From a virus, in the IMG/VR virus record IMGVR_UViG_3300042350_000805, positions 1 through 25,234 of that record: DNA of 25,234 bases; one strand, written 5' to 3'. Both the position numbers and the translations under genes were made by a program. Below the pieces are notes generated by a model that was not told the origin of the DNA, did not search any database, and was given only the letters and a program-made list of their open reading frames with translations. Each line of letters opens with the position of its first letter. The first letter of the stretch is position 1. Of the stretch, positions 5,680-23,131 are shown piece by piece.

Positions 5680-8550
5680 ATGACCGACTTCGATCTTCTC
5701 AGAGCAGTACAACCAGATGATGGCTGGTTTGTTGTCGTGAGCCTCAAGGGCTCTGGCAATGAAGTGCAGCGCAGACAAGACTTTTTATCCACGCGGGAAG
5801 AGGTTGATGTCCTCGCTGAACGTCGCTCGAAGAGCGGCTGGAACGTGTTCTTCGGCGTTGCCAAGTACGCCACGGATCAGAACCGCACCAAGGAGAACGT
5901 CCAAGGGCTTAAGGCATTCTGGCTCGACATCGATTGCGGAGAAACCAAGGCGCAGCCAAACGCCAAGACCGGGCGTCCAGAAGGCTACATCGATCAAGCT
6001 ACCGGATTGGCCGCACTTCAACGCTTCTGCCGTACCGTCGGGTTACCTCGTCCCATCATCGTCAACTCAGGGCGCGGCGTACACGCATACTGGGCGCTGA
6101 CGGGAACTATCACAAGGGAGCAGTGGGAGCCCGTGGCCGAGCGGCTGCGCAAGCTGTGCACCACACATGAGCTTTACGTAGACAACGCCGTCTTCGAGGT
6201 GGCGCGCATCCTGCGCATACCTGGCACGTTGAACTACAAGGACGACCCACCGCGTGAAGTTACGGTGCTGGCGACCGGTCAGCCTGTGGACTTCGAAAAG
6301 TTCTACAGCATCCTTGGGGTGAAGGCCGCAGAGATACTGCCGCTTGAGACACCCAAGCGTGAGCTTTCTGAGCTTGCCAAGTCGCTGCAAGAGAACATCA
6401 CATCCAGCTTCGCCAAAATCTTACAGCGGAGCACCGAGGGGAACGGCTGCCAGCAGATACTGGACTGCTATGAGAACCGCGTCTCACTGGCTGAGAACCG
6501 CTGGTTCAGCGCCCTATCGGTTGCGAAGTTCTGCGCAGACCAAGACACCGCCATCCACACCATGTCGGAAGGCCACCCAGACTACGACCCGCACAAGACG
6601 CTACAGAAGATAAAACACATTGTCGGGCCGCACACCTGCGAGACGTTTGAGCGTGGCAACCCTGGGGGCTGTGACGGATGCCCATTTGCGGGGAAGATCA
6701 AGTCCCCCATCACGCTGGGTAACGAGGTGATTGCAGCCACCGAAGAAGACAATGTGGTTGTCGAAGAGCCGGAAGAGGAAGGGTTTGCGCCTAAGACCCA
6801 CGTCATTCCTGAATACCCGTTCCCGTTCTTTCGCGGTAAAGCTGGGGGTATCTATCGCAAGTCCCCGCTAGGGAGGGATGGTAAGCCGATTGAAGAAGGC
6901 GACATCCTTGTGCTGCCGTATGACTTCTACATCCTGAAGCGCATGCGGGACCCTATCGAGAAGGACGTGGCGGTCTTCAAGTTTCACACTCCGCAGGACG
7001 GCGTCCGCGAGTTTACGGCTCCCCTCGCCAAGATTTCAGAGTTGGGAGATTTGCGCAAGCTCCTCGCAGGGGAGAGCATTCTGTGCGGTAAGAAGCGGTT
7101 TGAGTATTTAGCAGAGTACATACGGGCGTCACTGATGGCGCTTTCAGAGAAAAGAAAGGCAGAACTAATGAGACTTCAGTTTGGCTGGGCGGATAACGAC
7201 AGCAAGTTTATCGTTGGTGATTCAGAAATCACCGCAGAGGGCACCTTCTATAGCCCGCCCTCGTCTATCACGGGGCTAATTGCTGAGCGCATGGGGCCTG
7301 TGGGTTCGCTGGATAAATGGAAAGAGGTCTTTAACCTCTACGGGCGTCCCGGCCTTGAGCCGCATGCGTTTGCCGCGCTGACGGGCTTCGGTGCGCCGGT
7401 CTTCAAGTTCCTTGGCCAGCGGGGAGCTATGCTCAACGTCATCCACCCACACTCGGGCACGGGTAAGACCACCATCCTGCATATGTGCAACAGCATCTGG
7501 GGGTCGCCTGACGGTTTATGCTGCGTGCAGGAAGACACGCTGAATGCTAAAATCATGCGGCTCGGCATATATAACAACCTACCATACACCGTCGATGAAA
7601 TGACCAACATGACGTCGGCAGAATTCTCGGTGCTGGCCTACAACATCACGCAGGGACGCGGTAAGGACCGCGTGAAGGCATCCTCGAACGAGTTGCGGCA
7701 CAACGCCACGACGTGGCAGACGATGGCACTGTGCTCATCGAACGCATCCTTTTACGAGAAGATGGGTGTGGCCAAGAACAGCCCCGACGGGGAGCTTATG
7801 CGCCTCGTGGAGTACAAGATCGACTATACGGACACCCTTGACCCGCTGATGGCCAAGAACATGTTCGACCACCAGCTGATGGAAAACAACGGCCACGCTG
7901 GGCGCATCTACGCGGCATGGTTGGTTGCTAACTACGAACTGGCCAAAAAGACTGCGCTGAACACGCAGGCTAAGCTGGATCGTGAATTGAAGCTCACGCA
8001 GCGCGAACGCTTCTGGTCGGCGGTGTTGGCTGCTAACCTCACTGGGGGTGCGATTGCCAAGCACATTGGCTTGATCGACTGGGATATGCCGAGCATCTAT
8101 GACTGGGCTTGCAAGCTACTTTTGAGCCTGCGTGATGACGTGCAGCCGCCGCGCAACAACGCCATCGAGGTGGTGGGTGACTACATCCGTAGGAACATTC
8201 AGAGCATCTTGGTGGTCAACGAAGAAGCAGACGCTCGGTCCAGCATGCTTGCCGCTCCGATACTGGAGCCACGCAACGAGCTTCTGATTCGCTGGGAGCC
8301 CGACACGCAGAAGATGTACATTGCCACCGTGCCGTTTAAGCGTGACTGCGCGCAGTTCCAGATCAACTACAAAGAGACCATGGATTATCTCAGCAAGCGC
8401 GGAGTGCTTACCGGCAAGATCGTTAAGCGGCTGAGTAAGGGCATGAAGATGGTTGCCCCGCCGGTCTACTGTCTGGAGTTTAACACCGCCTCGGAAGAGT
8501 TTTTCAGTGTGGGCGACGTCGTAGGTGTCGGGAGTACCGATGCAAGTTGA
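5680..8550 (+). CDS. Primase-helicase (archaeo-eukaryotic-type primase plus P-loop helicase)
   Basis: This 956-aa fusion makes RNA/DNA primers and unwinds DNA at the phage fork. The N-terminal part (about residues 60-215) is an AEP/RepB-like primase. It has D83-x-D85 in FWLDIDCG for metal binding, the S-G-R-G-V-H-A-Y-W motif, and R-I-P-G-T-L-N-Y-K. A helical linker follows, then cysteines C320, C331 and C334 in a C-x10-C-x2-C arrangement (H318 nearby), likely a zinc site. The C-terminal part (about residues 500-850) is DUF927-like. Its Walker A is S592-G-T-G-K-T597 and its Walker B-like motif is V-D639-E640. The ribosome-binding site is weak (GAGTAG region), so initiation may be regulated. 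The gene overlaps the next start. Confidence 0.88.
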   Translation: MTDFDLLRAVQPDDGWFVVVSLKGSGNEVQRRQDFLSTREEVDVLAERRSKSGWNVFFGVAKYATDQNRTKENVQGLKAFWLDIDCGETKAQPNAKTGRPEGYIDQATGLAALQRFCRTVGLPRPIIVNSGRGVHAYWALTGTITREQWEPVAERLRKLCTTHELYVDNAVFEVARILRIPGTLNYKDDPPREVTVLATGQPVDFEKFYSILGVKAAEILPLETPKRELSELAKSLQENITSSFAKILQRSTEGNGCQQILDCYENRVSLAENRWFSALSVAKFCADQDTAIHTMSEGHPDYDPHKTLQKIKHIVGPHTCETFERGNPGGCDGCPFAGKIKSPITLGNEVIAATEEDNVVVEEPEEEGFAPKTHVIPEYPFPFFRGKAGGIYRKSPLGRDGKPIEEGDILVLPYDFYILKRMRDPIEKDVAVFKFHTPQDGVREFTAPLAKISELGDLRKLLAGESILCGKKRFEYLAEYIRASLMALSEKRKAELMRLQFGWADNDSKFIVGDSEITAEGTFYSPPSSITGLIAERMGPVGSLDKWKEVFNLYGRPGLEPHAFAALTGFGAPVFKFLGQRGAMLNVIHPHSGTGKTTILHMCNSIWGSPDGLCCVQEDTLNAKIMRLGIYNNLPYTVDEMTNMTSAEFSVLAYNITQGRGKDRVKASSNELRHNATTWQTMALCSSNASFYEKMGVAKNSPDGELMRLVEYKIDYTDTLDPLMAKNMFDHQLMENNGHAGRIYAAWLVANYELAKKTALNTQAKLDRELKLTQRERFWSAVLAANLTGGAIAKHIGLIDWDMPSIYDWACKLLLSLRDDVQPPRNNAIEVVGDYIRRNIQSILVVNEEADARSSMLAAPILEPRNELLIRWEPDTQKMYIATVPFKRDCAQFQINYKETMDYLSKRGVLTGKIVKRLSKGMKMVAPPVYCLEFNTASEEFFSVGDVVGVGSTDAS

Positions 8551-8734
8551 GAAGGTTAGCTACCAAGTCAACTGGAAGACGTTCAAGCGAGGCACGTCGA
8601 TCTTTATCCCGTGCCTCGACCCCGTCCGAGCGAAGCGAGAGGTGCGTCCCGTCATGGATCGGCTGCGATTTAGCGTCGTGATGAAATCTGTCGTCGAGGA
8701 TGGCGTCAGGGGTTTACGTATCTGGCGCGTTTAG
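8540..8734 (+). CDS. Small conserved phage protein of unknown function
   Basis: The 64-aa product starts at ATG 8540, 5 nt after GGAG and inside the last codons of the primase gene; a GTG at 8525 is in frame but has no ribosome site. The protein contains F-K-R-G-T-S-I-F-I-P-C-L-D and ends E-D-G-V-R-G-L-R-I-W-R-V. I recognise this combination from small proteins next to replication genes of other phages, without known function. It is predicted to fold as a small beta/alpha unit. It is the last plus-strand gene before the terminator. Confidence 0.68.
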   Translation: MQVEKVSYQVNWKTFKRGTSIFIPCLDPVRAKREVRPVMDRLRFSVVMKSVVEDGVRGLRIWRV

Positions 8735-8774
8735 TTATATAGCGCGTGAGAGTTTGCTCCTCTCTGGTTGTACT

Positions 8775-8811
8775 AACCCCCGCTGGTTTCCCCCAGCGGG
8801 GGTTTTTTTTT
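8775..8811 (+). terminator. Strong intrinsic terminator between convergent modules
   Basis: A 10-bp perfect stem, CCCCCGCTGG (8777-8786) and CCAGCGGGGG (8793-8802), has a loop of TTTCCC and two extra A-T pairs at its base. It is followed by nine Ts (8803-8811). It ends the plus-strand operon. The T-run also supplies the first two bases of the minus-strand stop (TTA at 8810-8812). In the minus direction the stem is followed only by TTAGTA, so termination there may be weaker. Confidence 0.9.
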
Positions 8812-11800
8812 ATTCCCTATTACGTAGTGTATCACGCACGAGCGCGTCGTATTTCTCTGGTACGCGCAGCCCTTGCATTGAGTTACCACGGGCTTCAGCA
8901 CGCGTCTGAATTGACTCCGCTGCATTCTCGTCTGAGATCGGATGGATGTAACCGGTACGGGCTTCCCACTTGCTGATCTCGTCCCAGATAGCACTAATCT
9001 TCGCCGCGTTTTCGTTAGTTGGGTTACGGTCCAGCTGCAAGGTAGCTTTGTCCAGCCGATCAAGGAACTTGCTGCGCTCCTTTTCGATTGCGTCCACGGT
9101 GCGCTTAACCATGATATTGGTCTTCTGGATGTCAACCACCTCGGTGCTACCGAAGCCGCCAGCTTGCAGCAGCAATTTGCCGAGAGTGTACTCCTCCTTT
9201 GCCTTTACCACGTCACCTGTGGAGGGTGTGACGTAACCTTCTTCTGCAAGGCGCTTGGCTATGATACTTCCCTTGATAAATCCGGGCGCGAAGTTTTCAG
9301 CCATGCGCTGCCAGTCGCCGTCCATCGCATAGTCTGTACCCCGAGCAAATAGCTCGGCTACACCACCCGTTGCTCCCGCCATATTCCACCACAAAGACTT
9401 CGCCGCTTCCTGCGTCGTGTCTGTAGGGGCGTCATCTCGGAAGAACATATTGTCCAACCCGACTGAGCCGAAGTTGACATCCGTAGCAGCGGAAACCGGA
9501 CCCATCTTAATCCCACGTACGACCGTTTTGGCCTGTTCAGGTGCCAGGTCGAGGTAGAACGCGAAGTCGCTGTCGGGGCCGAAGTAACTTGGGAGGAACC
9601 ACTCACGGAACCACAGATCAAGGTTACGAGAGAAAAGCGGGTTGAACTCGTCCTCCTCACCCGGCTCCTCATCATCTGGGCGCATCTCGTCGATGATTGC
9701 CTGCGCCACACCCATCATGAAGCTATATCCGGGCATACCCACAGTACCAGCAAACATCCATGTCATACCAAGGACGCCGAAGAACTTTTGTGCAGCTGCG
9801 GTGCGCTCCGCACGAGTGGGCATTAGACCGACCATACCCATGAACGAACGGATCAGCAATGACGCCATCTGGACCGGAAAAGTGAAGAACTGGAATGCAA
9901 TACGTCCCGGTATTGTTTTAAGCATACGCGGCTTGCTGGTCTCCGCGTAGTCAAACATAGTCTCTTGCGTAAGTTCGGAGGCGGTATCAGCGGCGATGAC
10001 CTGCGCCGTCTTGGCATCTACACCTCTTGCGCGCTGCTTTTTAAACTCAAGCTCAAACGCGGACATGTACATAATCTCACGCGACATGCGCTCGATGTGA
10101 TGCATACCCCCAGTGGTAAAGTCCCACACGGCACGGCTGGTGCGAGCGCCGCGTGTTTCGTACTGCTCACTTGGGCGGCTTTTGCGCCCGAAGAGGTCGC
10201 CGGAATAGGTGTTACCAGCAAGCCCCCGGCTCATCATGTCGTCCCAGCCAAACTGGAGCGCATCACCCAGTTCTTTATTCTTGTTCTTACGTACGTAGGC
10301 AGAATCCCCGATGGTGGGTTGACCCCATTCGGTGATGACATTCCCGTTTTCATCGCGCTTAGAGGTGCCGAACTTGCGGGGGAAGGTAGCCATGTACCGT
10401 GTCGCAAGAGCAAGAGTCTGCGCAGTTCCGTAGCGTTCCGCAAGAAAAGTCAACCCCACAAACGGAAGTTGGAAGAACTGAAGCAACTGCGACTTAACCG
10501 AAGTCAGCAGGAAAAGGAACGATACCTTCGTAGCAAAGTTGGCAATAAAACTTCCGGGAGGAGCGTCAGGTGAAATAGCCTGCGCAGTACGCATCGCCAT
10601 TTCGTCCACATATGGAGAGAGCAGGTTTTTATCTGGGTTACCCTCCAGCATACCATAGGCTTCACCAACCAAATTGCGCATGTCTCGGGCATGCTGAAGC
10701 TGAGCTAGCCTATTAATAGCCGCCATTTGTGTGTCGGTATAGGCGCGCAGGACGTCAGCGGAGAAACCGGAGATACCCTGACGATGTTGCATACGCTCTA
10801 GCGTCGTGCCTTTCGGCAGCGACGAGATATACATCTGGAAGACCATGTCCTTGATAGCTTTGGCATCTGCCGAACCACCCTTGTCAATCTCATCAAACAC
10901 CTTCTTGAGTACGTCCGATGGTTCGTTTGCAAAGAAGTCGGCTTGCAGCCCGTCAACGTCACGTCCGTAAGTAATTGTGCTTGGGTCGGCCATAATCTCT
11001 TCGGCAGAACGGGTATCCCCACCCTGACGAATTTCTTCAATGGCACTTTGAAGCGCAAAGTTCCAAGCAGTCTCATTATCCAACCGCAGAGTTGTACGAC
11101 CCTTACCCTTACCTATACGCACCCAGAAGTTGCCAGAGCGATACAGCGGGGAGTAGGGCCCCAGTTGCTTGGCCTTACTATACATGTCGTTAATACGACG
11201 TTCGGTGTCCTTCTTTGCCGCAGCGCTAAGACCTGAACTACGGATGTTGTCGATAATCGTACGGTGCTCAGCGTCAAAAGCTTTTTCGAAGTTGCTGATC
11301 GCCATCTGGTACAGACTCTGGCCCTCGCCGTTGCCCATTTTGGGGTCGGCAAGTTGCTCGTATAGATCGTACACGTACTTCAGTGTGTTGAGCCGATTGT
11401 TAAGGCTGCGCTTAGATGCACCTTTTTTAACAAGCTCTTGCATCTTCGGATCGTTATCGACCATGTCTTGTAAGGACGCATAGCGCGGGTCAGCCTCCGC
11501 CGACGTGGACGCGTTAAGGAGCATGGAAAGGACGCGGCCACCTTCCTTGAACTTAGTATTGAACTTACGCCAGCGGTTTGCTTCGTAGCTCAACCGTTCG
11601 AGCATTTTGTTGCGGGTGCCCGTCATCATTTTAAAGGTGTTGTCGAGTTCAGCCAGCTTGCGCGCCAGCGGCGGCGAGTACTTTTGCACGTTACGCAGGA
11701 TGTCGCGGTTGAAGTAGAACATGTAGAGCGCCGCACGGCGGCGCTTGGCATCCAGTGTCGTCCACACGGAATTAAGCAGCCGGATTTTTTCCTTAGAACC

Positions 11801-14800
11801 GCGAGCCGCAAAGAACAGCGCACCTGCCGAACGGTTAAGCTCCGCAGCTTTATCAGCGGTAGCTAGCTTCTTCTCAAGGCGCTTTACGCTGGCCATGTTC
11901 CTAAAATCAGTGACTTCGGCGGCAAGCATCTGCCCTTGGGTCGCGCCGCTTTCGGCAGTGAGAACAGCCCGCAAACCGCGAATGACGGCGGCGTTGCTCG
12001 GGAAACCAAAGAAGTCCTTCACGGCTTCGATGAAGTCGCTAAACCAAGTGCGCGCCGCGCCTACCCAGCCAGTCCGTTCTGCGCGCCTGCCGATTAGGTC
12101 TGTGGCGTTGACCGCCCAGAACTCGGATGGGTTCGACAAGTGGTACACCGAGTAAGGAATACTTCCCGAAGCAAAAGACTCACTGAGCTCACGTTGCGCT
12201 TCTCGATCACCATAGTACGCTTGCACAATTGCGCCCAGCACGTTGCGCATCTCGGTGTTGTTGGTTCTCTCGGCTAGAGCGAGAAGGTCATCGATCCGCT
12301 TACGCCACGCAGCGCGGATACCGTTACGCACCGCCTCGGGCATCAAGCGCTCGGTGTGGTGCAGGATTTCGTGTACAGCCGTGCCGTCGTTAGCGCCGCT
12401 TGCAAAAATAGTTATAAGGCGCACGATAGGATTATACTGGCCAGCCGGGCTTTGCTCATTGCCCGCTCGGAACGAAAAGGCCAACTCTTCGGCAATGGCT
12501 GGATTGCGTTCGAGTACCCAGCGAGCGAGCGCCGCAGCTCGCGGGCTAAGTTGACCGTTGCGTTCGGCGCGGTAGATAACCTCCATGGCGCGTTCAAAAC
12601 CACGAACACGGGGACGAGCGCGATTAAGCTGATTCCGGTAGATACGCCTATCAACATCTCGGCGCAAAGCCTCCAACCCAGCAAGAAGGCGCGCAACGAG
12701 GCCATCCTTCCTATACTGCCTCATGATGCGGTCGAGACGGGCGCGAACATTCACTTGCTCGCCAGCCGGAAGGGGACCTAGCATGGCCTCAATGTCAGTG
12801 TTGCGAGGCTCATCGGTCAGATTAGCCTGCGCTGCCTCAGGCGTTTCTTGGGTGTCCACCTGCCTAATATTTTCAAACATCCGACCCTTTGGGGCCTTAG
12901 GAGTAGTCGGGGCCTTACCGAGAATGCCGCGCTGAATGACGTTGCCATCAGCGTCCACAACGGCGGGGCGCGTGACTTGGAGAGGGGGGTTATTGCCCTC
13001 GTAGTCATAAAACTGGTCAATCGTAACTTCGCGCAAGGATTTAAGTAATTCGCCTTGTAGTTGCCGTTGCCAGCCAATGATCATGTCACGACCGGGGAGA
13101 GCAAGCAGGGCACCGTCCGGAGCCTGCACCACCGACATGGTCATGTTAGAACCCAGCATCTGCATGGGGATTTCCCGCACCGTGGACGCTTTAAGCTGGT
13201 CAAGAGCATCAAACGTCGGCGCTTCCACAATGGCTTGATAGTTTTGCAGGATCGGTGCGTAGGCTTCTGGCAGGGGTGCTTCTTCTTTAACGGTAGGCGC
13301 AGTCTCAACGGTAGGCGCGGCCTTAGCTTTAGCAACGCTATCCTGCGCCCACTGCTGACCGGCTTTGTATGCGTCGAGAACTTCCTGCCCTGACCTTTCG
13401 AGGATTCGCTGGTCAGGGATAGGCTCAAGACCAAGGGCAACGTCACGCACGCCTTCAGCGAACATACCATATAGTTCGGTATTGGGCGTATACCCACGAG
13501 ACCGCGCTTCGGGCACTGAGAACGCTATAAGGTTCTTCGCAATCTCCTGCGGGGTGGGTTCTGGTTTGGGTGTAGGCTTGATCTCAGGCGCGGAGGTAGC
13601 AGTGGGTGCAATTTCTCCCGTTATTGGCGTAGGCGTAGGCGCAATCTCTTCGGCTACTAGCGTAGGCTTAACCTCAGTAGGCAAAGCTTGCTGGTTCGCC
13701 TCAAATTGCGATTGGATTGCCGCACGTTCTTCGTCGGCCTTGGCATTGATAGCCGCAAGCCGGGTGTTGAGTTCGTCTTGAATTTCTTGAGCATTCGGAG
13801 GTCCTGCAACCGTAGCGCTAGGCGCGGCGGTCGCGCGCGAAGGGATTTCTTCGCCGCGCAATTGCATACCACGTTCAATAACCGCCCCGATGGCATCGTA
13901 AGGAGCGACTTCAGGACTCTCAAGGACAATACGCGCAGCTTGCTTCTTCTGCTCTGGGTTAAGCTCCGTAACCCCATAAGTATCTTCGAAGTCCAGCGCA
14001 GACGCTTCAAACGCTTCTTCAATGGTCGGAATTGTGGCTTGAATCTGCTTACCGGTAATAGATGCTAGCGGACGCTGCTGTGTGTCTTCACCAGCTTGTT
14101 CGGCGGTTTCAGCGGTTCCAGCAACTTTAACGGCTTTAGCGGTTCCGGCATCTGCCGGTTTCCTCTGCTCCGCGACATAGTTTTGTACGTCGCCCCCTGC
14201 CTTACGAAGTGCATCCGCGTCAGACATGCCTTCGGATTTGTATTTAGCAACCGCCGCCTCAAACGCGTCAGCAAGCTGCCCGCGCGTCGCATTAAATTCT
14301 TTAAGTCGCCCTTCTTCGGCTTCCTGCTTCAAAGTGCGCTTAGCTCGGGCGGTTTCTGACCGAGACCCTATTACACCAGTGGTGAACGTCGTAGGTGTAC
14401 CGACAAGACCACCGCCGATACCTTCTGCTACCGATGCTTCGAAAACACGCTTCAGGTTTTCGTCGCTAAGCAACGGGCCAGTCTGCTCACCAATTGCACG
14501 TTCACCGAGGATGGAAGTAATTTCCTGCGCGCCCCCAGTCAGGGCTTCTTCGCCGGTTTCGCGTGGGAACCGTTTGGCCGCTGCCTTACCCTCTTGCTTA
14601 ACAGACTCGATGAACGAGCGCTTGGCAGCAGCTTCGAGGACGTCGCGCGTGCCTTCCTTGCCGAGTTCAGAAGTAATCTTACGGCTAAGCACGGTGCCGA
14701 CAGGACCGAACAGATCGAGCGCACCCTGCACGGCGGCAGACACGGCAACCACATCGCCGCTATCCCGAAGGTACTTGGCGATTTCCGTAGCCTGCTTTTC

Positions 14801-15670
14801 AAGCGGCAAATCTTTATATTTCTCGCGCGCGAACGCGATGCGGTTCGCAGTTTCCGCGCCGTAGCTAATAGCCGTACCCGCAGTAAAACCACCTATTGGA
14901 CCAGCGACTGCACTAGAAGCCATGGTGACTGGAAGCTGAGCAGCGGTTTCGCCTATCACACCGCCGAGGTAATTTTTAAACGAAGCCCAGCTATCAATGT
15001 CGCTAACCTGCGTTGTCTTTGCACGGAGCGGACGTGCTTCTTCTTCCGCTTCTTCGACACGCTGAAGGGCGCGTTCAAAGCGCGGCGCGATATTCTCAGT
15101 AATTTTATCCACCCCGCCGCGCATAATTGCACGCTCACGAGGATTAGCATTGTAGTACCGGAACGCAGCCTCATCTATGGCGAGTTCGGTGTCGGGCCCT
15201 GCGGCGACAGGGATACCCATGCCAAATGCGCCAGCTTGACCAGCGACCATAGCCGCTGTCATCCGAGCTTCTTTCAATTCCTCTTCAGATTTGAACTTGG
15301 GCTTGTACTTGCCGCTATCAATCGCATCGAAGATTTCGCGTTCCTGCGCCGCCGCATTGACGGGACCAGCGAATGCTTGTGTAGCAGCCTGCTGCGGTAT
15401 GTTAGCTAAACCAATCAAACCGCTCTTAAGGCTGCTACCGATCTGCTCGAAGAAGCCCGGTTGTGCATCGCCTTCTTCCTCGGGTGCCACCTGAGCGGGA
15501 GCTACAGCGGTAGGCGCAGCCAAAGCAGCATCAGGTGTAGCAAGTGCAGGCTTACCCGCTTGTGGGGCACGCTTGAGGATTTCCGCCATCACCGTTTCAC
15601 GGGGCAGACCTGCGGGTCCCTCGATCCGATAGACCTTACCGTCCTTGCCGGTCATTTGATAAAGTGGCAT
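8810..15670 (-). CDS. Giant internal virion/ejection protein with HExxH metallopeptidase motif
   Basis: This 2286-aa protein is the last gene of the virion operon. Its N-terminus has the Y-R-I-E-G-P-A-G-L pattern common at the start of giant phage virion proteins. Residues about 200-450 hold Gly/Ala-rich hydrophobic segments. Near residue 1100 is V-H1100-E1101-I-L-H1104-H, a zinc metallopeptidase HExxH motif; E1183 in NPSEFWAVNATD is a possible third ligand. Two strongly hydrophobic blocks occur near 1703-1748 and 1920-1992, fit for insertion into a membrane. It resembles the large polyvalent / ejection proteins of podoviruses that enter the cell with the DNA. No transglycosylase motif is evident, unlike T7 gp16. 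The start has GAGGA 7 nt upstream. Cleaving cell wall or host proteins is inferred, not shown. Confidence 0.75.
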   Translation of the reverse strand: MPLYQMTGKDGKVYRIEGPAGLPRETVMAEILKRAPQAGKPALATPDAALAAPTAVAPAQVAPEEEGDAQPGFFEQIGSSLKSGLIGLANIPQQAATQAFAGPVNAAAQEREIFDAIDSGKYKPKFKSEEELKEARMTAAMVAGQAGAFGMGIPVAAGPDTELAIDEAAFRYYNANPRERAIMRGGVDKITENIAPRFERALQRVEEAEEEARPLRAKTTQVSDIDSWASFKNYLGGVIGETAAQLPVTMASSAVAGPIGGFTAGTAISYGAETANRIAFAREKYKDLPLEKQATEIAKYLRDSGDVVAVSAAVQGALDLFGPVGTVLSRKITSELGKEGTRDVLEAAAKRSFIESVKQEGKAAAKRFPRETGEEALTGGAQEITSILGERAIGEQTGPLLSDENLKRVFEASVAEGIGGGLVGTPTTFTTGVIGSRSETARAKRTLKQEAEEGRLKEFNATRGQLADAFEAAVAKYKSEGMSDADALRKAGGDVQNYVAEQRKPADAGTAKAVKVAGTAETAEQAGEDTQQRPLASITGKQIQATIPTIEEAFEASALDFEDTYGVTELNPEQKKQAARIVLESPEVAPYDAIGAVIERGMQLRGEEIPSRATAAPSATVAGPPNAQEIQDELNTRLAAINAKADEERAAIQSQFEANQQALPTEVKPTLVAEEIAPTPTPITGEIAPTATSAPEIKPTPKPEPTPQEIAKNLIAFSVPEARSRGYTPNTELYGMFAEGVRDVALGLEPIPDQRILERSGQEVLDAYKAGQQWAQDSVAKAKAAPTVETAPTVKEEAPLPEAYAPILQNYQAIVEAPTFDALDQLKASTVREIPMQMLGSNMTMSVVQAPDGALLALPGRDMIIGWQRQLQGELLKSLREVTIDQFYDYEGNNPPLQVTRPAVVDADGNVIQRGILGKAPTTPKAPKGRMFENIRQVDTQETPEAAQANLTDEPRNTDIEAMLGPLPAGEQVNVRARLDRIMRQYRKDGLVARLLAGLEALRRDVDRRIYRNQLNRARPRVRGFERAMEVIYRAERNGQLSPRAAALARWVLERNPAIAEELAFSFRAGNEQSPAGQYNPIVRLITIFASGANDGTAVHEILHHTERLMPEAVRNGIRAAWRKRIDDLLALAERTNNTEMRNVLGAIVQAYYGDREAQRELSESFASGSIPYSVYHLSNPSEFWAVNATDLIGRRAERTGWVGAARTWFSDFIEAVKDFFGFPSNAAVIRGLRAVLTAESGATQGQMLAAEVTDFRNMASVKRLEKKLATADKAAELNRSAGALFFAARGSKEKIRLLNSVWTTLDAKRRRAALYMFYFNRDILRNVQKYSPPLARKLAELDNTFKMMTGTRNKMLERLSYEANRWRKFNTKFKEGGRVLSMLLNASTSAEADPRYASLQDMVDNDPKMQELVKKGASKRSLNNRLNTLKYVYDLYEQLADPKMGNGEGQSLYQMAISNFEKAFDAEHRTIIDNIRSSGLSAAAKKDTERRINDMYSKAKQLGPYSPLYRSGNFWVRIGKGKGRTTLRLDNETAWNFALQSAIEEIRQGGDTRSAEEIMADPSTITYGRDVDGLQADFFANEPSDVLKKVFDEIDKGGSADAKAIKDMVFQMYISSLPKGTTLERMQHRQGISGFSADVLRAYTDTQMAAINRLAQLQHARDMRNLVGEAYGMLEGNPDKNLLSPYVDEMAMRTAQAISPDAPPGSFIANFATKVSFLFLLTSVKSQLLQFFQLPFVGLTFLAERYGTAQTLALATRYMATFPRKFGTSKRDENGNVITEWGQPTIGDSAYVRKNKNKELGDALQFGWDDMMSRGLAGNTYSGDLFGRKSRPSEQYETRGARTSRAVWDFTTGGMHHIERMSREIMYMSAFELEFKKQRARGVDAKTAQVIAADTASELTQETMFDYAETSKPRMLKTIPGRIAFQFFTFPVQMASLLIRSFMGMVGLMPTRAERTAAAQKFFGVLGMTWMFAGTVGMPGYSFMMGVAQAIIDEMRPDDEEPGEEDEFNPLFSRNLDLWFREWFLPSYFGPDSDFAFYLDLAPEQAKTVVRGIKMGPVSAATDVNFGSVGLDNMFFRDDAPTDTTQEAAKSLWWNMAGATGGVAELFARGTDYAMDGDWQRMAENFAPGFIKGSIIAKRLAEEGYVTPSTGDVVKAKEEYTLGKLLLQAGGFGSTEVVDIQKTNIMVKRTVDAIEKERSKFLDRLDKATLQLDRNPTNENAAKISAIWDEISKWEARTGYIHPISDENAAESIQTRAEARGNSMQGLRVPEKYDALVRDTLRNRE

Positions 15671-15702: not shown

Positions 15703-16998
15703 TCATTCATCAAACATACTACCAAGGTCTTCGACAGCTGCCCCGTCAAAACCCGCTAGGTAGTCGTTTACACCCGCAGCAATGAGGCCCCTACGGAATT
15801 TAGCGGCTGCCTTCGGATTTGTCTTTTGAGCTTGCTGGTAAGTTTGGTTACCAAGTTCTGGTATTTTAGTTTGACCTTCACGACCGGCAAGTGCTGTATC
15901 AATTTGCTTGGACACTGCGGCAGAGACCTGCATGTTAATCCGCTGATTTTTAAGTTTTTCAGCGCCTAGATAACCTTTCTTACTTTGATCCGCAGCGTAG
16001 CGAGAAGCCCCCGCCGTGATATTTGTCCGCTGCAATGCACCGGCTTGTTCGAGTGCCGCAGCCTCTTTCGCCGCCTTACGCTCAACAAAGCCTTTTGCAA
16101 TCTCACCCGCTTGGCCTCGGCCCTTCATACCTTCAAGTACAAACGCGCGCTGTTCGGCGTTGGTCATACCTTCATCGGCAGCCAACTGCTTAAGCGCGTC
16201 CCGCACCTCGGCGCGCCGTTCCTTGACGCTCTCCTGATAACCGGGGAGAGTTTGACCGGCGGCCTCACCCGCTGCCGATAGTAGGGGGCCCCGAGTGCTT
16301 GCCAGCTTGGCACCGAACGACATAAGGAAAGAATTTAAATCCTGTTTGCCGCGCTTCTTTTGACCTTCCTCGGACAGAAGGTCTTTGTAGGCTTGGTTAG
16401 CGCGCTCCGCATACTCTCGCTTTGGCTGATACGCCGCGTTGATGTCCCGCATAAAGTTTTGCGGGTCGCGGTAGTAAGCCATGTTTTCACGTAGAATTCG
16501 CTCTTCGTCTACCTCATCTCCTTGAGCAAAAGCCACGATACCACCGTCGGCATACTCGCCATCCATGGGCTCATCGAACATGGTTTCCGGGATAGGAAGC
16601 ATAGCCAAGCCGCCGTCAGCCATACCCATAGGCGGAGCACCCATAGGCATATCACCCATAGGCGGAGCAGGAGGAGCACCCATCGGGGGAGCGCCCATCG
16701 GAGGAGCCATACCCGGTGCCATGGGGGGCGGGGCTGGTGGGGTCATACCTAGCCCTCCGGGGGGAACAGCACCCGGAGCTTGGGGAGCGCCCCCCATGAC
16801 CTGTTGAGCAACCGAAAGTTGCGGAGCCATCTCCTGCACCTGCGCGGAGCGCATACGGTCGATGAACATGCCGGCAAGAACGCCAGCCGTGGGGTCAACT
16901 ACGCCCATCTGCATGGCTTGCGCAATCTTCTGCTTGTTGCCGCCGTAGTCCTTGGCGATATCCTCGGGGGACTGGATGCGGTACGGTTTCGTTTCCAC
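15703..16998 (-). CDS. Putative ejection-type virion protein with Pro/Met/Gly-rich repeat
   Basis: This 431-aa protein starts at GTG (16998), 8 nt after GGAGG, immediately downstream of the 424-aa gene. The N-terminal helical part (about 1-70) contains Q-S-P-E-D-I-A-K-D-Y-G. Residues about 85-125 are a low-complexity stretch of APPMG units. It then has M-A-D-G-G-L-A and Y-A-D-G-G-I-V motifs near 126-155, like those at the ends of tape-measure and injected phage proteins. The rest is helical and Ala/Lys/Glu/Gln-rich. It lies between two probable injected proteins, so a role in the internal core or ejectosome (T7 gp14/gp15 position by analogy) is reasonable. No enzymatic motif is seen. Confidence 0.6.
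   Translation of the reverse strand: METKPYRIQSPEDIAKDYGGNKQKIAQAMQMGVVDPTAGVLAGMFIDRMRSAQVQEMAPQLSVAQQVMGGAPQAPGAVPPGGLGMTPPAPPPMAPGMAPPMGAPPMGAPPAPPMGDMPMGAPPMGMADGGLAMLPIPETMFDEPMDGEYADGGIVAFAQGDEVDEERILRENMAYYRDPQNFMRDINAAYQPKREYAERANQAYKDLLSEEGQKKRGKQDLNSFLMSFGAKLASTRGPLLSAAGEAAGQTLPGYQESVKERRAEVRDALKQLAADEGMTNAEQRAFVLEGMKGRGQAGEIAKGFVERKAAKEAAALEQAGALQRTNITAGASRYAADQSKKGYLGAEKLKNQRINMQVSAAVSKQIDTALAGREGQTKIPELGNQTYQQAQKTNPKAAAKFRRGLIAAGVNDYLAGFDGAAVEDLGSMFDE
16621..16740 (-). repeat. APPMG-coding tandem repeat
   Basis: The stretch repeats a unit of about 15-30 bp encoding Ala-Pro-Pro-Met-Gly. The 16-bp sequence at 16624-16639 recurs exactly at 16654-16669, a spacing of 30 bp (10 codons). 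The array keeps the reading frame of the 431-aa virion gene. Slippage could change copy number in-frame. Confidence 0.8.
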
Positions 16999-17001
16999 GA
17001 C

Positions 17002-18276
17002 TTAGCCTCCCCTGAACGTATTGTACGCGCCAAGCCCGGCGAGACCGGCACCAAGAGCCTGTGAAGCAAACGACGGCGGCGTTGCGTATGCCGTTTGAGT
17101 CGAATTAAGCTGCATCGGCAAACCGCGCAGGAGGCTGCTGAACTGCCCAAGCTGCTCCATCGGGAAATCGCGCTGACGCAGGAAGTCACCGTACATCTGG
17201 TCGAGGTATTGTTGCTCCAGAGCACGGACTTCGCCTGCCGCCCCTGCCTGCGCCTGAAGACGCTGGAGATCAGCCTGCTGCTGGTACTGACCGAGGTTAC
17301 CCAGTGTCTGACCCATCTGGCCAGCCTGCGCGAGACCAGCCAGCCCCTGCTGCGAACCAAACTGACGAGACTGTTCTCCCAGACGCTGCGCTTCAAGATT
17401 AGATTGCTGGTTAGCCAGCGCAGCGCGCATCGACTGTTCAGCGTTTAGACCTTGGGTCTGAAGCTGCGCAGCGAGGTTTTGCACGTTCGACTGCTGTGCA
17501 GACGTAAGGTTAGCCAGCGCCGCCTGAAGGCCCGTTTGAGTGCCCAGCTGCTGCTGTTGAAGAGCGGCTCCCAAGTTCTGCTGCCCAGCGGTCATGCCCG
17601 CGCCACGGTCGCGCTCAAACTGGCTCTGCGCGTTCTCAAACGCCGACTGCAAACCACGGGATTCGATATCACCTAGCTGCTGGCCGAGATTACGTTCGCG
17701 CTCAATACCCGCCAGCAACTGGCGACTACCACCATAGGTGCCCTGACGAGCCGCACCAAGGTCCTGAGCTACCTGTCCCTTTTGCGCATCTCGGATAGCT
17801 TCGCGCTTCTGCACATCCAGCACGTTGCGGATGTACGGTGACATATACTCTTGAGCTTGCGCCTGCCCAAACCGCTCTGGAGCAGCCATCCGGAACTGTT
17901 CGAGAGGCCCAGACCCGAAGGAAGTCTGCGCAGCGCGCATAGATGGCGCGTTGACCTGTCCCGCCGTAATCTGTTGTGCGTTGAACTGACCCGGCGCGTA
18001 ATCACTGGCAAGCAGCGACCCTTGGCCAGCGGCAGCGGCAAGACCCGACCCCATCGCAAACTGGTTGGGAGCACCCAAGCCAAGGACGTTCTGCTGGACT
18101 TGTTCCTGCGCCGGAGTGAAGCCAGCAATACGCTCATAAGGGTAAGGCGTATATTCTTGATTTAGCTGCCCTTGCCCGCGACCCAGTAGGTTCTCGAAAT
18201 ACGGCTTTGCGTAGTCCGGCAGATTGGTCTGCGTGACTTTCTGCTCGGTCTGTGTGGGTTGACTAGGACTGGGCAT
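17002..18276 (-). CDS. Gln-rich helical virion protein, probably ejected with DNA
   Basis: This 424-aa protein has a short Ser/Pro/Thr/Gln-rich N-terminus and then Q-T-N-L-P-D-Y-A-K-P-Y-F-E. Residues about 144-180 (YMSPYIRNVLDVQKREA, then QGTYGGSRQ) are a block I recognise from structural proteins of environmental podoviruses. The second half is a long Gln/Ala/Leu-rich helix region, probably coiled coil, ending in a small Gly/Ala-rich hydrophobic tail. Length, composition and place in the operon fit an internal core or ejection protein. An AAGGG site lies before the ATG (18276). No catalytic motif is seen. Confidence 0.6.
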   Translation of the reverse strand: MPSPSQPTQTEQKVTQTNLPDYAKPYFENLLGRGQGQLNQEYTPYPYERIAGFTPAQEQVQQNVLGLGAPNQFAMGSGLAAAAGQGSLLASDYAPGQFNAQQITAGQVNAPSMRAAQTSFGSGPLEQFRMAAPERFGQAQAQEYMSPYIRNVLDVQKREAIRDAQKGQVAQDLGAARQGTYGGSRQLLAGIERERNLGQQLGDIESRGLQSAFENAQSQFERDRGAGMTAGQQNLGAALQQQQLGTQTGLQAALANLTSAQQSNVQNLAAQLQTQGLNAEQSMRAALANQQSNLEAQRLGEQSRQFGSQQGLAGLAQAGQMGQTLGNLGQYQQQADLQRLQAQAGAAGEVRALEQQYLDQMYGDFLRQRDFPMEQLGQFSSLLRGLPMQLNSTQTAYATPPSFASQALGAGLAGLGAYNTFRGG

Positions 18277-18282
18277 TACCGG

Positions 18283-18714
18283 TTACCCTTCTTCATTCAA
18301 TGGTAGTTCAAACGCCTGCCACAGCACTTTTGCACTTTCAGGAGCAAAGAAGCGGGCCCAACCCATACGCCCACTCCCCTCAATACCGGTGCAGTCGTTG
18401 TCTACAGCCCAGCTACGCATGGTTTTAAGCATAGGTTTTTTCCACCGTTGGCCATCTTCACCTGCGCATAGCACGAGATGCAGATACTTGCTGCGAGGAT
18501 AGAGAGAAAACCCAGTTACAACCACACCGAGAATGTCCGAGCCTTCAAAAGCAATCCACATGGTATGGGTGCCGCTAACCACGAAGTCGAGAATGTCTTC
18601 CGGCTCGTAGCGCCCACGTGAGTATTCTACAGCTTCACTAACATACGCCCGCACCGCAGGCCACACCTCTAATGCGTGTTCAGGCGGGACTGCGGAGACA
18701 AGGACGTCACTCAC
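18283..18714 (-). CDS. GNAT-fold acetyltransferase-like phage protein
   Basis: This 143-aa protein starts at GTG 18714, overlapping the stop of the preceding gene (GTGA), so it is translationally coupled. The centre has a beta-strand pair typical of GNAT proteins (MWIAFEGSDILGVVVTGF), then a charged G-E-D-G loop in the acetyl-CoA position. Near the end is I-E-G-S-G-R-M-G-W-A-R, a pattern shared by small phage proteins in virion operons. The classical R/Q-x-x-G-x-G/A motif is not clear, so it may lack acetyltransferase activity. It could modify a virion or host protein or be a structural remnant. Confidence 0.55.
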   Translation of the reverse strand: MSDVLVSAVPPEHALEVWPAVRAYVSEAVEYSRGRYEPEDILDFVVSGTHTMWIAFEGSDILGVVVTGFSLYPRSKYLHLVLCAGEDGQRWKKPMLKTMRSWAVDNDCTGIEGSGRMGWARFFAPESAKVLWQAFELPLNEEG

Positions 18715-20873: not shown

Positions 20874-21191
20874 CTAGGTTGACGTTATCGTTTGCCAGTT
20901 TGTGCCGTTGTAGACGGACAGCTTACCTAACGTAGTGTCAAAAACTACCCAGCCAGCCTGCGGCGTTAGGGCGTTCTTCTGGGTTGTAGTCACTTGCCGT
21001 GCAGCGAAGATACCATCAAGGGTACCGCCATAAAAATTATCAGCCCGGTAGGACTCCGCTTGGTTAGGGGCGAGCGAATCCAACTGGGAGAAGTAAGTCT
21101 CCAGCACGCGGATAAGCTGTCGTATATAGTGGGGGTCGTACTCCGGAGGTGGGTTGGGCAGCGGAGCCGCACGGAACTTAGTTAGAGCCAT
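20874..21191 (-). CDS. Small tail-fibre-associated structural protein
   Basis: This 105-aa protein starts at ATG 21191, overlapping the stop of the upstream gene (TAATG). The first half contains L-P-N-P-P-P-E-Y-D and a helix with R-V-L-E-T-Y-F-S-Q-L-D. The end, with G-W-V-V-F-D-T-T-L-G-K-L and YNGTNWQTI, is a small beta unit seen at the ends of many phage fibre and collar proteins. Translational coupling to the 646-aa gp10-like protein suggests a complex in the tail tip or fibre base. The exact role is unknown. Confidence 0.65.
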   Translation of the reverse strand: MALTKFRAAPLPNPPPEYDPHYIRQLIRVLETYFSQLDSLAPNQAESYRADNFYGGTLDGIFAARQVTTTQKNALTPQAGWVVFDTTLGKLSVYNGTNWQTITST

Positions 21192-23131
21192 TAACGCCGA
21201 CCATCTTCGCGCATATCAAGACGCGGCGCACCAAGCTGCCACTGAACCCCAAGCTGGTCGGATATGACTTTAAGCGCCATCTGCCTTGCACGTGCCCGAA
21301 CAAAGACCTGCTCGGTGTACGTATCGACCGTGGTCCGCATTACCAGCTTAGCATCGCTGGGGTTGTTTGAGAGGCTGGAGCCGGGGAAGTTACGCGTCCG
21401 CACTTCCAAAGTCACCTCTGGGGTGTTGGCCGTAGAGTCATCAAAGTTCACGTCGGGCAGCATACGGCGGGTCAGCATAAACTGGTCGCCTTCGCCAAGG
21501 TCAAAGTCAGAAGACTCGATATAAGCCGACAAGGCAGCGCCATCATCGTCGAGACCGTTCTCATGGCTGTACAGATATCCGTTGCCTACCGTCACGTCGC
21601 CAAGGTTGTTTACGGCCACGGGAGTGTTTGCTGCCTGCGGGTAGCGGCGTAGGGCTGTGTCCAGCCATGCTGTGCGGTCGATGCTCCCGTAGTACCAGAG
21701 CCTATCAAGGTGATTGTACACGACATAAGCGTTATTCACTTCGGAGTCGGCGGTCGGGTAGAACCACCAGACCTCGTTCCATTGCTCGTTTGTACCGGAG
21801 ATAATCTGTTCCGCCTGCGCGAAGTTGAGGTTCTGGAAGACGTGGTTGCGCAGGGTGCAGGGCAGCGTCTCGACGCGACCGGTGTAGGCGTAGAACTTGT
21901 CCTGACCCATCCAGTAGGTGATGTTAGACGCCGTTGCCACGGCACGGGGCGAGGCAATCGAGATGTTGTCTGCGTACTCTTGCAGACCGAACACGTCAGT
22001 CGTGCCAAGGAACTGGAGGGTGTAGAGGTGGCTATCCGTCCAAACGAGGATTTCCTGCCGAGTAGGTAGTGCGCGAACGATGCGCGAACCGCGCGAGATA
22101 CGCAGGTCACCAGCGGTATTAGTAGCGGTAGGGGTCCAGTTACCCGGCGCATCCTGCGAAGCCCAACGGATAAGCATGGGGTCGAAGTCGTTCGCATTTG
22201 TGCTACCAAAGGGCACTGCGCCAAAGGCGATGAGATGCTTATCCTGCTGTGAGACCAGCAGTTGCATAACTTTGACCGGCACGTCATTGGCAACGTAACT
22301 ATTGGCAGTGGCGTACGCCTGAAGCGTAATAGCCCGCGTGCTCAGAGCCGCGCCCGGATCAACGGTAGACCCACGCTGCCAGATGTATGGCGCGCCGTTG
22401 CGGATGTTAGCTACAAGGTCGTTGTCGAAGTTGTCCATCCACCAGTCACGCTGGGGCTGCGACACCGGGCTTGTAGAGCCAAGACCCCAACCAGAACGGC
22501 CCCACGTGCCAGTGCCCCAGCCGTAGCCGTTGAGCGGAACTGGATTGCCGGTGTCGATCTCAAAGCTGATGCTGATAGCCGTACCGCCGCCCCCAGCGGA
22601 GTTGGACGTGACCGGACCCGTGATGGGGAAAGTGAACGTCGATGAACTCAGCACAGTGACTTTATGATTGCCGTTGATCTGGCTAGCAGCCACGCCACCA
22701 ACAGGACCCACGACGCCGGAGATGGTTACATAGTTGCCGGTCTGCGTTCCGTGCCCGGCGGGAATAACTACCGTTATCGTCGTAGGTGCAGTGGTGCTCG
22801 TCTGGATGCAGTTGTCCGTGCTGGGCGTCGTCAGCGTTGGGCTGACCGAGCGGAGCGGCGTGATGTCGTAATAGTTACCACCGGCCTCGATGTAGAGCTT
22901 GGCGTTCGTCCCCAGTGACAGCAGGTTATCCGAGAACGTGGTAACCCAGTTCCACATATTGCGGCACACGCCAGCAAACGGTGTCGGCGTAGATTTGACC
23001 CAGCCTCCAATCTTTTCCGGGTACCCGGAGCGGAACCGGATTTTGTCACAAGCAAACCAACCACCCTCGTTGGAGTAGTTGGTCTGGTCGCGGTTTACAC
23101 CGGGCCGGAATTGAAGTTTGGATAGGGGCAT
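21191..23131 (-). CDS. Tail/DNA-stabilisation structural protein, P22 gp10-like
   Basis: This 646-aa protein has an N-terminal block L-Q-F-R-P-G-V-N-R-D-Q-T-N-Y, then GGWFACDKIRFRSGYPEKIG. This is the hallmark of a widespread family of phage tail/stabilisation proteins that includes the P22 gp10 type. Repeated W/Y-rich beta segments (for example W-T-D-S-H-L-Y-T-L and D-R-L-W-Y-Y-G-S) suggest a beta-propeller, as in podovirus nozzle proteins. Residues about 100-180 look like an inserted Thr/Ser/Gly-rich beta domain (G-N-H-K-V-T-V). It would seal the portal and join the tail. The ribosome site is weak but present (AAGG). Order in the operon, between fibre and small fibre-associated proteins, agrees. 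Confidence 0.68.
   Translation of the reverse strand: MPLSKLQFRPGVNRDQTNYSNEGGWFACDKIRFRSGYPEKIGGWVKSTPTPFAGVCRNMWNWVTTFSDNLLSLGTNAKLYIEAGGNYYDITPLRSVSPTLTTPSTDNCIQTSTTAPTTITVVIPAGHGTQTGNYVTISGVVGPVGGVAASQINGNHKVTVLSSSTFTFPITGPVTSNSAGGGGTAISISFEIDTGNPVPLNGYGWGTGTWGRSGWGLGSTSPVSQPQRDWWMDNFDNDLVANIRNGAPYIWQRGSTVDPGAALSTRAITLQAYATANSYVANDVPVKVMQLLVSQQDKHLIAFGAVPFGSTNANDFDPMLIRWASQDAPGNWTPTATNTAGDLRISRGSRIVRALPTRQEILVWTDSHLYTLQFLGTTDVFGLQEYADNISIASPRAVATASNITYWMGQDKFYAYTGRVETLPCTLRNHVFQNLNFAQAEQIISGTNEQWNEVWWFYPTADSEVNNAYVVYNHLDRLWYYGSIDRTAWLDTALRRYPQAANTPVAVNNLGDVTVGNGYLYSHENGLDDDGAALSAYIESSDFDLGEGDQFMLTRRMLPDVNFDDSTANTPEVTLEVRTRNFPGSSLSNNPSDAKLVMRTTVDTYTEQVFVRARARQMALKVISDQLGVQWQLGAPRLDMREDGRR

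Follow-up and report, generated by a model that had tools for sequence, protein, structure and literature searches.

Zincins within the polyvalent proteins of phages were described in 2017 by Iyer et al. (PMC5512222), where they are the commonest domain of such proteins; the same authors unify the metallopeptidase (MPTase) of phage N4 with lethal factor. Polyvalent proteins are giant phage proteins built of several domains, among them an MPTase and LPD domains. In the N4 virion RNA polymerase (vRNAP, gp50), the polymerase payload is followed by an HExxH domain (C1, residues 2124-2375) and a large C-terminal part, C2, which is mostly helical and about 1125 residues long (PMC12633501). In phage P1, DarB carries an N-terminal capsid-targeting signal of 30 residues (PMC9024508), and DdrB, a virion protein of 995 aa, has a metallopeptidase at its C-terminus. 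A DarB-like protein of podophage JC1, gp69, has been recovered from purified virions by mass spectrometry with 51 unique peptides (PMC9144972).

The window analysed here, the whole 25,234 bases of a virus contig, encodes a protein of 2286 residues that invites comparison with these systems (Table 1). The open reading frame at 8810-15670, proposed in the first-pass annotation, is real and runs on the minus strand; read on the plus strand, this interval contains stops throughout. The protein matches a DarB-like antirestriction PHROG (phrog_10089, E 2.2e-36). Its upstream neighbours, which include homologues of a DNA ejection protein and of a virion structural protein, share its strand, and the genes past it run on the opposite strand, an arrangement indicating that a late ejection module ends with the giant gene. 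The 431-aa gene directly upstream, placed in the module by position, has no clear family match in Pfam and PHROG searches. The late ejection gene cluster, the relatives of the 2286-aa protein and the presence of JC1 gp69 in virions suggest that the protein most likely travels in the virion and enters the cell along with the DNA. The likeness to JC1 gp69 invoked here is one of DarB-like label, and among the matches listed there was no sequence link to Bcep22/JC1 or other Burkholderia phages. A 143-aa gene at 18283-18714, for which a Pfam search returned no match, occupies the place of an annotated acetyl-/acyltransferase in the ejection modules of JC1 and Atu_ph08.

Table 1. Features of the giant gene and its neighbours in the window, followed by stand-alone zincin genes in other records (positions in their own records).
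Feature	Residues	Position	Strand	Remarks
Giant gene, polyvalent / DarB-like ejection protein		8810..15670	minus	2286 aa
N-terminal tag MPxYxMTGKDGxxYxI...	1-41	15548..15670	minus	common to otherwise different phage proteins
N-terminal region, payload position	1-960	12791..15670	minus	no recognisable enzyme domain
Zincin-like metallopeptidase domain	1020-1255	11906..12613	minus	model, conservation, structure comparison
HExxH	H1100-H1104	12359..12373	minus	predicted zinc ligands H1100 and H1104, predicted general base E1101
Glutamate three residues past HExxH (HExxHHxE signature)	E1107	12350..12352	minus	invariant
Predicted third zinc ligand, in NPSEFWAVNAT	E1183	12122..12124	minus	invariant, 90/90
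Tail-700 / PLxRFG domain NF032893	1504-2004	9659..11161	minus	226.5 bits, E 6.3e-67
PLYRSG, variant of PLxRFG motif	1508-1513	11132..11149	minus	
Gene of ejection module, directly upstream of giant gene		15703..16998	minus	431 aa; by position
DNA ejection protein homologue		17002..18276	minus	424 aa; phrog_4287, E 5.4e-13
Virion structural protein		21191..23131	minus	646 aa; phrog_3287, E 2.5e-57
Stand-alone zincin gene, L035 (521 aa)		7197-8762		
Stand-alone zincin gene, L100		4482-6098		
Stand-alone zincin gene, L102		5173-6783		
Stand-alone zincin gene, L108		5101-6759		
Stand-alone zincin gene, L023				
Stand-alone zincin gene, L037				
Stand-alone zincin gene, L130				

The sole HExxH of the chain is HEILH at residues 1100-1104, where amino acid composition predicts 0.0035 occurrences. 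For its conservation we assembled 90 phage sequences from viral and genome contigs, clustered at 85% identity and reaching down to 27% identity; a locus was recruited by either of two motifs, HE..HH.E or SEFWAVN, such that each cross-checks the other, although both sets recruited in this way lean towards conserved members. Ten residues are invariant in all 90 homologues (Y1079, H1100, E1101, H1104, H1105, E1107, Y1176, S1182, E1183 and W1185), and this invariance across non-redundant sequences indicates that the motif is not a product of chance. As either motif sufficed for recruitment, a carrier of SEFWAVN with a broken HExxH would have surfaced; none was present among the recruited loci. The first-pass annotation had singled out exactly H1100, E1101, H1104 and E1183, and the conservation in homologues that it had left to be checked holds for each of them. 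The simplest reading of the invariant, predicted general base is an active protease.

An AlphaFold2 model of residues 1009-1265, computed from an alignment of 89 sequences (A3), has a mean pLDDT of 84.9, with blocks around the active site at 88-97. It runs from a helix through three strands (1064-1068, 1077-1080 and 1085-1089) to the HExxH helix (1097-1109) and, after further helices, to a helix at 1181-1199 (model residues 173-191) on which E1183 sits. HExxH on one helix, a Glu ligand on a later helix and a three-stranded sheet before the active-site helix, the hallmarks of a zincin, likewise make up the MPTase core of Iyer et al. (PMC5512222). A shallower model (residues 961-1290, 48 sequences) was mostly helical and lacked strands, and structure searches with it picked up mainly a helical hairpin at its N-terminus; the trimmed model supersedes it. 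In Foldseek, the best ranks went to IrrE-type proteins, minigluzincins, lethal factor and M1 peptidases at weak E-values, 0.04 or worse. A second aligner, run on Foldseek's top PDB chains, placed the lethal factor catalytic domain first, with a Z of 6.7 for an alignment of 122-124 residues. Zincins filled all of its 24 best rows (the lethal factor catalytic domain, a predicted zincin and IrrE); as a Z of 6.7 is middling, below 8, the weight rests on the consistency of the list. A sequence-profile search of the PDB returned nothing. The Pfam model PF18818 (MPTase-PolyVal, cut-off 27.5 bits) had no match, either in general Pfam searches or in a targeted search that was silent in control genomes too and so carries little weight by itself.

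Taken with the DarB-like/PLxRFG homology and the ejection neighbourhood, the invariant active site and the zincin model bear out the earlier suggestion of a metallopeptidase inside a giant, probably ejected protein, and the model gives a zincin in place of the non-enzymatic helix that had been the alternative; we regard the assignment as the zincin domain of a polyvalent ejection protein as very probable. The domain defines a large clade with a strictly conserved active site and no Pfam model, of the polyvalent-protein kind known since 2017; it may coincide with one of the 12 clades published by Iyer et al. (PMC5512222). In a separate observation, an RxRG motif lies in the loop just before the domain (residues 1021-1024, 12599-12610), with R1023-G1024 kept in 89 of 90 homologues.

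The remainder of the chain is that of a polyvalent protein with little recognisable cargo. A Pfam search of the 2286-aa protein gave no significant match, only a sub-threshold one to GDH_HM2 (residues 1743-1765, E 0.03), and methylase/helicase modules as in P1 DarB were absent in that search. The tail-700 match exceeds the cut-off of that model (100 bits), and the chain thereby combines an MPTase with tail-700; LPD23, LPD37, LPD38, LPD39 and ART-PolyVal are added in homologues, which, as in the polyvalent MPTases portrayed by Iyer et al. (PMC5512222), places the peptidase inside a giant multidomain protein with LPD-type neighbours among its relatives. At the N-terminus, residues 1-41 share 73% identity with the beginning of an ORF of 1426 aa that differs elsewhere (L005, ORF at 7992), and the starts of the L141, L012, L147 and L146 proteins resemble them as well; by analogy with the P1 DarB signal, this segment might be a packaging tag of similar purpose. 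The hydrophobic blocks noted earlier proved weak: a Kyte-Doolittle mean above 1.4 is reached in only two windows of 19 residues (307-325 and 1707-1725, each at 1.47), and no clear transmembrane helix emerged.

Judged from sequence, the 2286-aa protein belongs with those polyvalent proteins of podoviruses that are called 'DarB-like'. Its nearest annotated relatives, the 'DarB-like antirestriction' proteins of Erwinia phages PEp14, Pavtok and Stean, are 27% identical to it over residues 1021-2209 and have the same zincin motif, HEILHHTERMMP. These proteins are about 4900 aa long and possess SLT, Eco57I-type methylase, SNF2 helicase, LPD37 and LPD39 domains that are absent here at Pfam thresholds; the 4917-aa PEp14 protein is ordered SLT, Eco57I methylase, SNF2 helicase, LPD37, zincin, LPD39 and tail. 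Other relatives contain ART-PolyVal, LPD23 or LPD38, and across the relatives the payload position is filled by SLT, methylase, SNF2 helicase or ART. Since the 2286-aa protein has no recognised payload enzyme, its 'DarB-like' label reflects the C-terminal half alone.

These comparisons bear on one proposal of the first-pass annotation, that the peptidase cuts peptide bonds of peptidoglycan. In such a reading it would do so as the DNA enters, standing in for the lytic transglycosylase that the protein lacks. The transglycosylase is indeed missing, as had been stated, in that the whole protein lacks a Pfam SLT match, and SLT is absent from 32 of the 43 zincin-carrying records, many of which are fragments. 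However, SLT and zincin occur in one chain in PEp14 and others, with SLT at the N-terminus in PEp14 and Parlo; replacement of one by the other is therefore ruled out. To our knowledge, the peptidoglycan metallopeptidases (M15, M23, M74) have folds other than that of the HExxH zincin. Because the zincin occurs with or without a transglycosylase and the known cell-wall enzymes are folded differently, we consider a peptidoglycan target very improbable.

Profile comparison suggests a link between the domain and that of N4. Alignment A3 matched 11 N4-type vRNAP metallopeptidase domains with an hhalign probability of 60.7 (E 8.3e-5, score 39.9, 140 columns); the strand region and the HExxH line up, and E1183 falls inside the aligned stretch. 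None of 100 column shuffles exceeded 22.2, and reversing the alignment gave 11.9. Gp50 has HELVHASTF where the 2286-aa protein has HEILHHTERMMP, and the two chains share the succession of payload, HExxH domain and large C-terminal part; the latter is about 1000 residues here, and its likeness to C2 is one of place and size. A search of viral contigs with the N4 metallopeptidase domain returned only N4 itself. P1 DdrB shares HExxHHxE and has a TEVFSM motif resembling SEFWAV, but its alignment to A3 is local (24 columns, score 29.6, against a best shuffle of 25.4).

The same two phages raise the question of whether the domain cleaves at all. The zincin fold could persist chiefly because the giant chain needs it for packaging, folding or regulation, while cutting little or nothing: according to Iyer et al. 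(PMC5512222), the N4 region that includes the metallopeptidase domain is needed for encapsidation of a protein that stays uncleaved, the C-terminal part of N4 vRNAP autoinhibits the polymerase (PMC12633501), and P1 DdrB is listed as helping the addition of DarB to the capsid (PMC9024508). Yet across 90 sequences E1101 varies no more than the histidines do, and zinc bound for structure alone could do without this glutamate; such a role therefore seems to us improbable.

A further clue to function comes from tail-700 proteins, 15 of which were assessable, the 2286-aa protein included. In 11 of them an HExxH precedes the start of the tail by 358-540 residues: it belongs to the present clade in four, and the other seven (L232, L233, L235, L238, L239, L241 and L004) have different sequences there, whose motifs include HELFHAG, HEAFHSG, HEAWHALD, HEMGHNGL and HEMGHVHE; these too may be zincins, going by their motifs. 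That a different HExxH often stands in the same slot when the clade is missing goes beyond the literature on this class that we consulted.

We propose that the domain carries out limited proteolysis of the phage's own ejection proteins, a reading that we hold with about even confidence. The protein would be laid out as a tag and payload region (residues 1-960), the zincin (about 1020-1255) and a C-terminal half, about 1000 residues long, with tail-700/PLxRFG; H1100, H1104 and E1183 are predicted to hold zinc, with E1101 as general base. The target would be either the chain itself, near the junction of payload and C-terminal half, or a co-ejected partner, and cleavage would take place during head maturation or after entry. 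In favour of processing, the domain persists irrespective of payload, even in payload-poor chains such as the 2286-aa protein, and different HExxH sequences in the same slot fit a generic task better than one specialised host target. Also in its favour, P1 DdrB reportedly matures to a form of about 76 kDa (PMC5512222). Against it, N4 vRNAP, its HExxH intact, is reported as packaged unprocessed (PMC5512222); chains of 3500 residues are deposited in the PDB for the latter, which together with its unprocessed packaging argues that the N4-related domain is not constitutively self-cleaving. Four tail-700 relatives (those of PBC5, Atu_ph08 and two Vibrio phages) in which no HExxH precedes the tail also count against processing, as does a zincin-to-tail distance that varies from 192 to 717 residues.

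Processing in cis is further weakened by the existence of zincins as separate genes. Stand-alone genes of 505-560 aa account for 7 of the 59 closed zincin ORFs, and a separate gene cannot act only in cis. At the loci examined, the stand-alone zincin is immediately followed by a gene for an internal virion protein (phrog_6651, E 1.7e-14 and 2.3e-24), a placement that speaks for processing of phage proteins, and is flanked on the other side by a tail-fibre-like gene encoding about 740 aa, the genes overlapping or adjoining. The idea that these pairs are a tail-700 giant split in two finds no support: the profile of the internal virion protein matches no fused protein, and the neighbour of about 740 aa is tail-fibre-like. 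The stand-alone form, of which we found no mention in the consulted portion of Iyer et al. (PMC5512222), lends itself at about 530 aa to expression and to zinc and protease assays. The stand-alone genes belong to a different podovirus-like group.

The need to act in trans would also suit an injected effector protease, which after entry would cleave a host protein, for example one of defence or envelope, in the manner of other zincin effectors. The option is among those named by Iyer et al. (PMC5512222), the closest solved folds are endopeptidases that act on other proteins, and some relatives bear payloads (ART, methylase-helicase) whose predicted target is the host or DNA. However, active-site segments that are near-constant over a divergent family, and unrelated HExxH sequences in the same slot, fit a generic task better, and we consider an effector possible but rather unlikely. 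We found no report in the literature of a biochemical test of the zincin clade, nor of a demonstrated substrate for polyvalent zincin domains; a demonstrated substrate would separate processing of the phage's ejected proteins from attack on the host.

More tentatively still, podovirus ejection may comprise an interchangeable protease slot, occupied by several unrelated zincin clades, with the same protease encoded in some phages by a gene of its own next to that of the internal virion protein. If so, a packaged protease would be a general component of the ejection machine, working in trans as well as in cis. Separately, the giant protein of Serratia phage Parlo (L233) has a second HExxH, the N4-like HELVHAAT at residue 1198 of its ORF, and this chain may carry two metallopeptidases.
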